A stretch of 64,000 nucleotides of DNA, from the NCBI RefSeq assembly GCF_011047135.1, contig NZ_CP049255.1:682001-746000 (forward strand). Reading direction: 5' to 3'. This stretch comes from Microbacterium endophyticum (GTDB lineage Bacteria > Actinomycetota > Actinomycetes > Actinomycetales > Microbacteriaceae). This document shows, one piece after another, positions 8,464 to 18,730 of this stretch. The first letter of the stretch is position 1, and each line of letters begins with the position of its first letter. A model generated the notes under the pieces. The model was not told the origin of the DNA and did not search any database. It saw nothing but the letters and a program-made list of their open reading frames with translations. The position numbers were made by a program, and so were the translations under genes.

Positions 8464-8561
8464 TGCACGAACTCAGGCAATCCATCCGACTCGACAGCGG
8501 AGAACCCGGTCGTTGCCGAGTTCTGCAGCATGCGCAGCCGAAGGATGCCTGAGTTAGTGCA
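8464..8561. repeat. Inverted-repeat mini-element M1 (98 bp)
   Basis: Bounded by TGCACGAACTCAGGCA (8464-8479) and, inverted, TGCCTGAGTTAGTGCA (8546-8561). The two 16-mers differ at one position, and the similarity runs on inward (AATCC against GGAT). The interior shows no reading frame. It ends one base before the stop codon of the DUF559 gene. Same repeat family as M2 and M3. Confidence 0.7.
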
Positions 8562-8562
8562 G

Positions 8563-9522
8563 TCAGCGGCTGGCGCCGCGCGCGGCGAGTAGACCGCGCA
8601 CGGCTGCCCGCACCCGTTCGGGCTCGGTGAAAATCAGCTTCGCTGTCGGCCTTAGTACCGTGTATCCCCGCTCTGCGCTGGCGAGATCCCGCAACCGGTC
8701 ACGCTCCTGGTACCGCCAACCGGAGTGAAACTCTTCGCTATCGCACTCGATGATCAACCAACCATCGACCAGTAGATCAACGCGACCGACCCCGTCGATC
8801 ACCACTTGCAATTCCACCTTGCAGCCGAGCGAACGAAGTATCAGACGGAGCAAAGTTTCGGCACCTGATTCTGCTCGGCCGTCGATAAGCAGACGAAGCG
8901 GCCGGTACCGCGCCGGCAGAGCCGCAAACACGTCGTCAAGGCCCTGTTCATCCACAAAGCCGAGGTGCAGGGCGCTGTCGAACGTCGCGACTGTGGCACG
9001 GGGCGCTTGGCAGCGAGCAGCGGCGGCGAGCCCATCGACGATACTCACGCAGGTCGCGTCGTGGGAGCAAGGGACACTCAGCACTTCCCAGTGCATTTGG
9101 GTGCCACGGACAGAGCGATGCTCGAGCCGATGCCAGCGATCGTGAGGAGAGCGCAATCGGCTCATAGTGTGTGCGGCACGGACGTGAAGCTTCGAGTTGT
9201 TCAGCACGAATATTCCAGCCAGCTGCAGCAACGAGAGGCACGTTAGTTGGCCTCCCACCCGCACCGCGCGGGAGATAGCGTCAGGCGCGTCCCCCGGCAG
9301 ATAGTGATCGCGGCGCGCCCGCAGGAGCACTCCGCTTGCCACCGCCCTGGCAATCGCGCCTCTCCCCCAGCCTGCGTTCCGGAGTTGCGCGCGAGACACC
9401 GACCTGGCGCTTGCCGCCATCTCGCGACTATCGGTCCATCGATCAAACTCATGCATACGCCCACGCTCACGACTGCGCGGCGTCGACGGGATGAGTGCAC
9501 TCGACTCCGGGTCGAACGTCAC
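8563..9522 (-). CDS. DUF559 endonuclease-like protein with AbiEi-type N-terminus
   Basis: 319 residues. The N-terminal part (VSRAQLRNAGWGRGAIARAVASGVLLRARRDHYL) resembles the winged-helix domain of AbiEi-type antitoxins. The C-terminal part (RVDLLVDGWLIIECDSEEFH, then RDLASAERGYTVLRPT) is a DUF559 domain, a Vsr/PD-(D/E)XK-like nuclease fold with its acidic residues present. Such two-part proteins are common singletons in Microbacteriaceae, and no substrate is known to me. The GTG at 9522 is preceded by GCGAGG at good spacing; an ATG at 9456 is the alternative. No partner toxin lies alongside. Inverted-repeat elements flank it on both sides. Confidence 0.75.
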   Translation of the reverse strand: MTFDPESSALIPSTPRSRERGRMHEFDRWTDSREMAASARSVSRAQLRNAGWGRGAIARAVASGVLLRARRDHYLPGDAPDAISRAVRVGGQLTCLSLLQLAGIFVLNNSKLHVRAAHTMSRLRSPHDRWHRLEHRSVRGTQMHWEVLSVPCSHDATCVSIVDGLAAAARCQAPRATVATFDSALHLGFVDEQGLDDVFAALPARYRPLRLLIDGRAESGAETLLRLILRSLGCKVELQVVIDGVGRVDLLVDGWLIIECDSEEFHSGWRYQERDRLRDLASAERGYTVLRPTAKLIFTEPERVRAAVRGLLAARGASR

Positions 9523-9548
9523 TGCCTGCCTCGCTGGGGAGGACAGCC

Positions 9549-9624
9549 TGCACTAACGCAGGCAGGATGCCGTTCGAGCGGTTTCAGGACCCCGGTCGGG
9601 CACCGTTCTGCCTGAGTTCGGGTA
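9549..9624. repeat. Inverted-repeat mini-element M2 (76 bp)
   Basis: Bounded by TGCACTAACGCAGGCA (9549-9564) and, inverted, TGCCTGAGTTCGGGTA (9609-9624). The left end is 27 bp from the GTG of the DUF559 gene, so the element may overlap that gene's promoter. Confidence 0.65.
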
Positions 9625-9691
9625 CGAGACGGGGCTGCCGCCATGTGCGAATGAACGGGACACGCGTTTCAGGGGCGCGGAGCAGCACACG

Positions 9692-9776
9692 TGCACTAAC
9701 GCAGGCAGAATGCGGCCGCACCGCACCTGAGACACCCGAAACGGCTGGTCGCTGTTGTATTGCCTGCGTTCGTGTC
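9692..9776. repeat. Inverted-repeat mini-element M3 (85 bp)
   Basis: Bounded by TGCACTAACGCAGGCA (9692-9707, identical to the M2 left end) and, inverted, TGCCTGCGTTCGTGTC (9761-9776). It has the same outward orientation of ends as M1 and M2. Confidence 0.65.
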
Positions 9777-16666: not shown

Positions 16667-18730
16667 TCATTGGATGGCGCGAACGGCGAACAATTGTGCT
16701 TCTCCAGGAAGCAGTCCCGGCATCGCAAGGCCCACCTCGCCGAGCACACGGCCGGTAGCCTCTACTCCCCCCTCGAGCCAGGGTGGAGGTGCGTCGGCCA
16801 ACGAATGCGGTGAGGCACCGATGTCGAGCCGCTCAACGCGGTATCGCCGATTCGCATCGAGGTGAGGCATCCGAAGTCGCGGTGGAACAGCGGTCTCAGC
16901 CGCCGCTATCAGGGCATACGAGAACACGGCTTCGGAGAGGTCGGTCGCGACGACCCCGTGGACCACCACTGCCGGGTCCGGCTCATCGACGTGCACAACC
17001 TTGCCGCTGTGCAAAAGTGCCCGGTGAGTACGATGCACCTCGATCCACCGGCGGATGATCTCGAGGTCATCGCGATCAAGACGAGTGAGGTCGGACTCGA
17101 TTCCGGCGTGACCGAAGAAGGCAGTCGCGAAGCGAAACGCGAGCGACGAAGTTCTTCCTGATGTGTGTGCGCGGGCATCACCGAGATGCGAGCCGAGATA
17201 CTCGGGTGGAATCAGGATGCCGGTGTACCGCTGAATGCGCTGACGCTCGAGCGGATCGTTGGTGTCACTGGTCCAGACACGATCGACTCGCGGCAGGATT
17301 CCGAGATCGATTCTCGCGCCCCCCGAGGCGCACGACTCGATTTCCACCTGCGGGTGCAAGCGCCGCAATTCATCGAGAATCCGGTACAACGCGAGCACCT
17401 GCTCGTGTGATTCGTCGACAAGGAGGTCGCGGTTGTGGTCCCACTTGAGGTACTTGATCGGGTACTCCCGTAAGAGAGCATCCAGCGCGTCGCGCACGTG
17501 TGTCTCGGCGCCGGGTGCCGCAAGGTTCAGTACGTGCTGCCAACGCCAGGTGACGGCATCCTGTCCCGACATGATCCATTCCGGATGCGCCCGCGCGAGT
17601 TCTGAATCAGAGCTGATCATCTCGGGCTCAACCCACAACCCGAATTGCATGCCCCGCGCCTCGACACGCTCAATGAGCGGTGACAGACCGTCGGGCCAGG
17701 TCGTCGTGTCGACCGTCCAGTCGCCGAGAGCGCGCTTGTCGTCGCTCCGGCCGGAAAACCAGCCGTCATCGAGAACGAACCGTTCAACGCCCACATCTGC
17801 TGCGCGATCGACGAGGGGTGCCAGGCGATCGATCGAGTGATCGAAGTAGACGGCTTCCCACGTGTTGAGGGTTACCGGTCGAGGTGACGCGTGCGTCGAC
17901 CACGACCGCACCCAGGGGTGAACTCTTGACGAAATGCCATCTAGCCCCTGATCAGACCATGCCGCCACGACCGTGGGGGTTTCGACTGAGTGCCCCGGTG
18001 CGAGCGTGACAGGTGGCCGACGCTCCCCCGCACCGAGCACTGTGGTTCCGAGCGCCGAGCGCTCGAACCACTGCTGCGTGTCACCGCTCCAAGCGACGTG
18101 TGTCGCCCACACCTCGCCCGAAGAGAAGCCGAAACCTGGAGTGCCTGCCGCCATCAAAAACGCGTCGTCGTGTCCGCCTCTGCCATGTCGAGACTCCCTG
18201 AGCCAGACTCCCAAGCCAGGCTGCTGTCGCTGAGGTTGCCGCTCGCGCGACCATAAGCCGGTGAAGTCGAGCAACTCGCGGGCCCGATCCGGGACCGGAA
18301 GCGCTATGGCCGCAGAAGTCAGTGTGATCGCACTCGCGCTCTCGTTGTGAACGACATGCGAGGCCAGCAATAGACCCTGCACCGTGAGCTCAAGGCGTGT
18401 CGTGACGGATGACTCAGGCCATTCGCTAATCGAGGTGATGACGTTTTCACGTCGTGCCGTCTCGCGGTGCCGCGGCGTGCCTGCGGCCTCGGTGAATGCA
18501 ACGACCGGATGCCCGGACCAGCCTTCATGGAGGCCCGCAATCAAACTGAAACGCGGCGGTCGGTCGATCGAACTCGGCGGGTTGAGCTCCACTGTCGCAT
18601 CGACCAGATTGTGGAGATCGCTATCGGCAAGAGCGCCGAGGTCGCGACCCCAGTGCACGATCACCGGCACCTCCGTGCCGCGGGAGTCGACTACGAGAGA
18701 GACTCCCGCAGCACGGAGGTGATGGATCAT
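16667..18730 (-). CDS. Alpha-galactosidase, GH36
   Basis: 687 residues. Seen in order: an N-terminal beta-sandwich region, VERFVLDDGWFSGRSDD, the nucleophile aspartate in KYLKWDHNRD, the substrate loop ESCASGGARID and the acid/base aspartate in WTSDTNDPLERQ. It removes terminal alpha-galactose from raffinose/melibiose-type sugars. There is no signal peptide, so it acts on imported sugar. It is last in the galactoside operon, five bases after the binding-protein gene, whose 3' end supplies CGGAG as ribosome-binding site. A -10-like box is not seen in that gap. Confidence 0.93.
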   Translation of the reverse strand: MIHHLRAAGVSLVVDSRGTEVPVIVHWGRDLGALADSDLHNLVDATVELNPPSSIDRPPRFSLIAGLHEGWSGHPVVAFTEAAGTPRHRETARRENVITSISEWPESSVTTRLELTVQGLLLASHVVHNESASAITLTSAAIALPVPDRARELLDFTGLWSRERQPQRQQPGLGVWLRESRHGRGGHDDAFLMAAGTPGFGFSSGEVWATHVAWSGDTQQWFERSALGTTVLGAGERRPPVTLAPGHSVETPTVVAAWSDQGLDGISSRVHPWVRSWSTHASPRPVTLNTWEAVYFDHSIDRLAPLVDRAADVGVERFVLDDGWFSGRSDDKRALGDWTVDTTTWPDGLSPLIERVEARGMQFGLWVEPEMISSDSELARAHPEWIMSGQDAVTWRWQHVLNLAAPGAETHVRDALDALLREYPIKYLKWDHNRDLLVDESHEQVLALYRILDELRRLHPQVEIESCASGGARIDLGILPRVDRVWTSDTNDPLERQRIQRYTGILIPPEYLGSHLGDARAHTSGRTSSLAFRFATAFFGHAGIESDLTRLDRDDLEIIRRWIEVHRTHRALLHSGKVVHVDEPDPAVVVHGVVATDLSEAVFSYALIAAAETAVPPRLRMPHLDANRRYRVERLDIGASPHSLADAPPPWLEGGVEATGRVLGEVGLAMPGLLPGEAQLFAVRAIQ

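Follow-up and report, generated by a model that had tools for sequence, protein, structure and literature searches.

Why should a nuclease gene be bracketed on both sides by inverted copies of the same short sequence? The question is raised by a locus of Microbacterium endophyticum that lies within positions 682001-746000 of its 2.916-Mb chromosome (NZ_CP049255.1); these 64 kb, the whole stretch of DNA that was analysed, are called the window here, and positions at the locus are counted from its first letter. There, an open reading frame (ORF) of 319 aa counted from GTG (8563..9522, minus strand), predicted to join an AbiEi-like fold to a Vsr-like nuclease domain, is surrounded by three inverted pairs of the 16-mer TGCACKAACKCAGGCA. 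The answer that we favour, and consider reasonably probable, is that the three pairs belong to a dispersed, REPIN-like family of elements dedicated to the nuclease that they bracket, and that each nuclease of this kind recognises the arms of its own elements.

A search of the window at ≤3 mismatches gave nine matches to the 16-mer, above every one of 100 shuffles (mean 2.08, maximum 6). The six copies named in the preliminary description stand exactly where it had placed them: four without mismatches (8464+, 8546-, 9549+ and 9692+) and two with 2 mismatches (9609- and 9761-), while the further matches at 18654, 35949 and 47924 carry 3 each. They pair into element 1 (98-bp class, 8464..8561; arms 8464-8479 (+) and 8546-8561 (-), offset 82), downstream of the nuclease gene, element 2 (76-bp class, 9549..9624; arms 9549-9564 (+) and 9609-9624 (-), offset 60), upstream of it, and element 3 (85-bp class, 9692..9776; arms 9692-9707 (+) and 9761-9776 (-), offset 69). 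These lengths of 98, 76 and 85 bp had also been given correctly, as had the distances to the ends of the ORF. A second motif, SGTTTCRGG, does recur as described, with seven matches in the window, three of them in 9580-9743, but 2.5 are expected and seven were reached in 1 of 100 shuffles, so that taken alone it is poor evidence.

The 16-mer is not confined to this locus. Chromosome-wide, at ≤2 mismatches, it is matched 44 times and the reversed pattern 15 times, and we count at least 18 inverted pairs, hereafter family A, of 75-76 (7), 85-86 (3) and 97-98 bp (8). The count is a lower bound: pairs with two weak arms escape, and single matches with 2 mismatches at chromosome positions 243853, 1113169 and 2464513 were left aside. 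A match at 2549147 was discarded as a codon-level chance match in what we read as a LysR-like gene. Since 15 of the 18 pairs lie away from the nuclease gene, the 16-mer does, literally, occur widely without DUF559 genes, and the idea of elements tied to this gene alone has to be given up. The same figure, together with two DUF559-like loci of M. endophyticum without the 16-mer or a bracket (L032 and L036), initially led us to read the nuclease link as accidental, i.e. a dispersed repeat that flanks this gene by chance.

The closest named relative found, M. halimionae, whose nuclease is 86% identical, carries 17 pairs of 75-76 (9), 86 (1) and 97-99 bp (7), and in both species the arms start 59-60, 69-70 or 81-83 bp apart. 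No partner was found in M. halimionae for three of the 18 pairs (1098246, 1339865 and 1340052). Sixteen rows were aligned and two were dropped (775881, with two candidate partners), leaving 14 ortholog pairs. In these, identity is 96% in the arms (429/447), 73% in the interiors (552/756) and 72% in the 60-bp flanks (1128/1565), and the arms are more identical than the interior in 14/14. Element length is equal in 10/14 and differs by ≤1 bp in 13/14. In the window, each arm of element 1 is 16/16 identical to its ortholog and the interior of element 2 has the same length without gaps, while the counterpart of element 3, the exception in length, belongs to the 76-bp class (85 vs 76), one step shorter. 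Arms and spacing are therefore preserved while the interior drifts; within M. endophyticum, the interiors of different elements appear unrelated by eye. One family A element (L039:2001-2075; G000:752890-752964, G000 being M. endophyticum) falls within the 3'-terminal part of a predicted AlkA-like frame and may code for its C-terminus. A single presence/absence site was aligned, a stretch of ~330 bp (L109:1366-1706; G058:C1:710810-711150) present in M. halimionae and absent in M. endophyticum; the element lies mid-way in it, with short GC-rich tandem repeats alongside, and it is not a clean insertion.

The three length classes extend beyond this species pair. A pair pattern with 25 permitted gap lengths, run on 366 same-genus genomes, matched six, M. 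endophyticum and M. halimionae included, and among the matches listed in these six genomes the match lengths are 69, 78-79 or 90-92, i.e. the three classes. We then have five additional genomes in which a single arm was sought at ≤1 mismatch: it outnumbers the reversed control in G147 (62 vs 10), G249 (40 vs 5) and G060 (16 vs 8), and does not in G309 (5 vs 11) or G383 (8 vs 10). In the three genomes with an excess, convergent pairs ≤110 bp apart fall at 59-60, 69-70 or 81-82 in 34/34 cases; three pairs of G249, at 116, 124 and 137 bp, lie beyond that range. Inverted pairing, whose loss in relatives would by the preliminary description have told against its reading, is kept there, and tandem copies of elements occur in these further Microbacterium genomes. 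At the family level, a short core pattern matched 127/398 genomes, mostly 1-3 times and no more often than its control, and because the reversed control reaches 25 and 27 in two genomes, such counts alone are weak proof. Outliers exist nonetheless (e.g. G428 with 14, G508 with 13, G514 with 16 and G562 with 13), and among their listed matches lengths are mostly near 59-60, 69-70 and 80-82, with a few off-ladder. Five CTCAGGC pairs on contigs C19, C33, C69, C200 and C229 of G686 (genus g64), each of 57 bp, form an extra length class.

The steps of 10-12 bp in this ladder fit one helical turn of DNA. Matching between left and right arms is at the level of shuffled partners (250/288 vs 248.7 in M. 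endophyticum and 240/272 vs 238.0 in M. halimionae), which favours family A arms as double-stranded sites read by a protein and not as the two sides of a stem. Dispersal looks old in M. endophyticum. In G428 and G514 it looks more recent, with interiors of separate copies that resemble each other by eye.

If the elements are dedicated to the nuclease, relatives of the gene should be bracketed too. Brackets on both sides of nuclease relatives are found in 10 Microbacteriaceae genomes of four genera: G000, G058, G060, G147, G249 and G383 (Microbacterium), G514 (g76), G508 and G562 (g70), and G540 (g26). For instance, the relative in G508 is bracketed by two exact pairs within an 87-kb stretch. 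Four sites had been chosen for carrying two elements ~1 kb apart, and the gene between them is the nuclease at three (G249, G514 and G540) and a YchF-type GTPase gene at the fourth (G445). Paralogs have brackets of their own. Paralog B of M. endophyticum, located by protein search and 29% identical to the window nuclease, is bracketed by a different palindrome, GTCGGAGAATCGC, of which three more dispersed copies were found in the stretches examined (L041:3116-3177, i.e. G000:806358; L297:14617; L308:10616). All 5/5 family B pairs have an offset of exactly 51, though 20-120 was permitted. At ~1 kb from the copy at G000:806358 there is also a family A element, beside a coaA-like gene. In G249, pairs of GGGAGGAGATC, each at offset 56, stand on both sides of paralog C, and an Actinomyces oris nuclease (L285; NZ_CP116225.1:97428-102679) sits between two similar 122-bp palindromic elements with arms of 22 bp and one mismatch. 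The A. oris record is labelled a plasmid and carries genes such as groL, dnaK and cysS; a search of it listed five places for the element, of which the two flanking ones were identified. In the nuclease tree, the ten AACTCAGGC-type nucleases are not confined to a single group (3 label changes; one clade would give 1), suggesting that this arm core either predates the split of the nucleases or was gained twice, a grouping to be read with the caveat that the core itself had served as a search query, biasing recovery.

To put these brackets on a common scale, we used a de novo score per locus, taken from the best quartet of matching 12-mer arms (two per side), with no arm sequence supplied and a maximum of 72. 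On seeing that the downstream element of G508 overlaps the ORF end, we enlarged the inner margin from 60 to 200 bp, a single change, and scored the controls likewise. These were 196 frames of 600-1500 bp from a simple gene caller, in unselected and a few fetched stretches; one scoring 68 was the A. oris nuclease itself and was excluded, leaving 195, and one scoring 57 was a Tsukamurella nuclease locus and was retained. Twelve of 21 nuclease-like loci score 64-72, and the control maximum is 61. The passing loci are the family A nucleases of G000 (65), G058 (68), G147 (64), G249 (64), G383 (66), G514 (69), G508 (72), G562 (72) and G540 (65), paralog B of G000 (69), paralog C of G249 (66) and A. 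oris (68). A thirteenth bracketed locus, G060A, scores 49, its arms being degenerate yet visible by family consensus. Restricting the comparison to loci reached independently of the elements (L072, L073, L074/G060, L075, L036, L037, L206, L282-L286 and L032), 4/13 pass vs 0/195 controls (~1e-5, Fisher, by hand), with the reservation that L072, as the ortholog of the window gene, is not independent of it.

Several observations weigh against a dedicated partnership. Eight of the 21 nuclease-like loci lack the bracket. Six of them have none: three loci of Tsukamurella (57, 50 and 54), G000D (42), the DUF559-only locus L032 (44) and one contig labelled as phage (51). The other two, HD4P20 (47) and a Gordonia locus (46), have a pair on one side only; that of Gordonia is above its shuffles (count 10 vs a maximum of 3), while that of HD4P20 (count 3, shuffles up to 7) was noted solely for its offset of 69 and its AACTC core. 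Nor is the bracket exclusive to nucleases: GrpB-like, CofC-like and lipoprotein genes of M. endophyticum also sit between elements, which, like the 15 pairs elsewhere, would suit a chance association. Against chance stand the brackets in several genera, G508 among them, those of paralog B and the other paralogs, and the scored controls; they overturned our initial reading, to which we now give almost no weight and which we regard as refuted. What the preliminary description had called a nuclease gene living with its own palindromic elements, in a REP/RAYT-like layout, is upheld by the ten genomes and by the paralogs with distinct palindromes.

What kind of protein would read such sites? The predicted model of the 319-aa ORF has a predicted local distance difference test score (pLDDT) <50 over residues 1-26, and homologues, among the 120 listed of 495 scored, are mostly ~280 aa and cover ~85% of the query; the true start is thus probably ATG 9456, giving 297 aa. 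Residues 41-214 (8881..9402, minus strand) are predicted to adopt an AbiEi antitoxin-like fold, the putative DNA-binding part, and residues 218-317 (8572..8871, minus strand) a Vsr/EDxHD-type nuclease domain. In the latter, E222, D249, E259, D261 and H266 are invariant in 44/44 aligned sequences, and the model indicates a catalytic fold of the Vsr type in which acidic and His positions are conserved. Homologues bear the names DUF559, 'AbiEi family antitoxin domain' and 'very-short-patch-repair endonuclease'. The gene is neighboured by trpS (PF00579) on one side and, on the other, by a GNAT gene (PF13302) followed by a DNA glycosylase gene that we read as Fpg/Nei-like; no AbiEii nucleotidyltransferase toxin gene adjoins it.

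An excerpt of PMC7319586 describes AbiEi monomers that pair on inverted repeats and bend DNA. In the dedicated system that we propose, the AbiEi-like part would likewise bind one arm per protomer, placing two protomers on each element, and arm spacing would be limited to approximately helical-turn steps (offsets 60, 70 and 81-82), with the protomers sharing a DNA face and meeting over a bent interior. The Vsr/EDxHD domain would nick or cut DNA at the bound element or close to it, after which repair of the break or a transposition-like joining would copy elements into intergenic DNA. The nuclease gene would be mostly vertical and not copied along with the elements, and distinct paralogs with distinct arm sequences would give rise to separate element families.

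The same fold invites a different explanation, in which the pairs are operators: the AbiEi-like part would autoregulate through the bracketing pairs, the dispersed copies would be a regulon or selected sites, and the nuclease would act elsewhere, e.g. in defence. In the excerpted source, AbiEi and Rv2827c do autoregulate via inverted repeats (PMC7319586), and the arms and their spacing resemble protein sites under selection. However, elements stand on both sides of the gene, including just past the stop codon, and dispersed copies are found between convergent genes and upstream of genes alike. A regulon was rejected upon reading the translations of predicted frames next to the dispersed elements, which have no evident common function. 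Tandem copies and the alike interiors seen by eye in some genomes suggest copying and not the evolution of sites in place. We consider operators unlikely.

Somewhat less likely still is a homing cassette, in which the element would be the target, the gene would have entered it, the brackets would be the scar of a duplicated target and the dispersed copies would be potential targets. The notion of a solitary cassette, raised in the preliminary description, by itself leaves the dispersed copies unexplained. Moreover, the nuclease gene rarely moves, judging from its recurrent neighbourhood: it adjoins trpS in G000, G058, G060 and G147, and in G249, G383 and G514, by our reading of frames, either trpS or the glycosylase gene lies close by. 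The interiors of the brackets are unrelated in M. endophyticum, and no nuclease-occupied element beside an empty orthologous one was found, though none was searched for.

The distribution of the elements along the chromosome is far from even. In M. endophyticum, the 18 family A pairs found all fall within -767 to +291 kb of dnaA (1,457,888), with 0 in the remaining 64% of the chromosome; a weaker gap, around the presumed terminus, is seen in G147 and G249. Such a pattern, with paired sites that are helically phased and under selection, could reflect sites of chromosome architecture, e.g. for nucleoid organisation or segregation near the origin, the nuclease being a mere neighbour. A terminus macrodomain of the MatP/matS type was rejected, dnaA falling within the element range, and so was an origin macrodomain, the bias being merely modest in the two other species. 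What we take to be a strong dif-like site (G000:C1:111491-111510, 1 mismatch to the pattern used) is distant from dnaA. Architecture would also have to accommodate a nuclease bracket that recurs in four genera and in distant paralogs with other arms, and the crowding of elements around the nuclease in G508, a different genus, where 12/13 exact pairs lie inside a single 87-kb stretch that holds the gene; we find it highly improbable. In M. endophyticum, 4/10 other loci lie within 132 kb of the nuclease gene (chance ~0.009, for a radius picked post hoc), while G249 shows no such clustering. Where it occurs, in M. endophyticum and G508, clustering near the gene is as local spreading would produce. 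In G508:C1:2674265-2761527 and G562:C6:857513-879487, the tens of kb that surround the nuclease gene have elements crowded between ordinary housekeeping genes.

Folding differs among families. Elements of families B and C and of A. oris fold as extended hairpins with inner structure, 6/7 of their interiors having z < -1.5 (simple shuffles). In family A this value is reached by 1/18 interiors in M. endophyticum (mean -0.33), 3/17 in M. halimionae (-0.70), 4/13 in G428 (-1.22) and 2/4 in G514 (-1.85). By eye, a centre motif near CCGC..GATTTCCGCGG is seemingly common to long family A elements and the A. oris element. An RNA element was rejected: seven loci gave one sub-gathering Rfam match, off the elements, and the arms show no covariation. 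So was a virus-borne element, with the arm-pair pattern on 2 viral contigs, neither with a nuclease relative by tblastn; a scan of viral contigs for nuclease relatives found none.

Which known system does this resemble? Short palindromic intergenic elements with inverted ends are familiar as bacterial interspersed mosaic elements (BIMEs) and miniature inverted-repeat transposable elements (MITEs), and ours share these features. They differ in that interiors are unrelated yet of fixed length classes in M. endophyticum, and in arms that would be bound by the nuclease; no parent transposon was encountered, Y1 being the only type searched for. The closest layout is that of REPINs, built from repetitive extragenic palindromic (REP) sequences, and REP-associated tyrosine transposases (RAYTs). 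Excerpts of PMC3116915 describe REP doublets with preferred spacings of 71 and 110 bp and tandem clusters, single-copy RAYT genes flanked by their own REP, and several enzyme/repeat pairs per genome. Here, too, short inverted arms stand at preferred spacings and in tandem clusters, and an enzyme gene, here the nuclease and not a RAYT, lies between repeats of its own that differ from paralog to paralog. In contrast, the enzyme has a predicted AbiEi-like fold and a Vsr/EDxHD nuclease domain, no constraint from base pairing is seen in the arms of family A (elements of families B and C do fold as extended hairpins), and copies number tens, against the 560 doublets that the same excerpts give for P. 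fluorescens SBW25. A search for the Y1 (HUH) transposase PF01797 gave no match at E ≤ 0.001 in M. endophyticum, while 5/14 control genomes match. RAYT-driven REPINs were rejected on this ground, and the REP/RAYT comparison of the preliminary description stands for the layout and not for membership, the defining HUH transposase not having been found.

The enzyme side has its own relatives. The predicted N-terminal fold resembles that of AbiEi antitoxins (type IV toxin-antitoxin), which are known to bind inverted repeats, but the neighbours are trpS and GNAT genes, a nuclease is fused and sites are chromosome-wide; with no toxin gene adjoining, this is not an AbiE toxin-antitoxin pair. It also differs from the EDxHD homing endonuclease I-Bth0305I and from Vsr: the gene is free-standing and intergenic, its DNA-binding part is of another kind, and no mismatch-repair context was seen among its immediate neighbours. 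No description of the nuclease/palindrome association was found in the open-access literature (subscription papers and preprints were outside the scope of the search), and the association points to an undescribed enzyme-and-repeat partnership. It is conceivable, though we hold this at slightly less than even chances, that it represents a class of selfish or domesticated systems across Actinobacteria, independent of RAYT/HUH enzymes, in which each copy of an AbiEi-type fold joined to a Vsr/EDxHD nuclease spreads and keeps its own palindromic paired-site elements, their lengths stepped by helical turns through two-protomer geometry.

For dispersed bacterial palindromes, an enzyme partner is known in RAYT systems, while the origin and persistence of others are an open question. 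The presence in one genome of two paralogous systems with different arms makes a clean swap of specificity possible. If the partnership holds, it would give a role to genes annotated merely as DUF559, 'AbiEi family antitoxin domain' or 'very-short-patch-repair endonuclease', and would add a second, unrelated class of enzymes with dedicated elements, meaning that the partnership of an enzyme with its palindromes evolved more than once.
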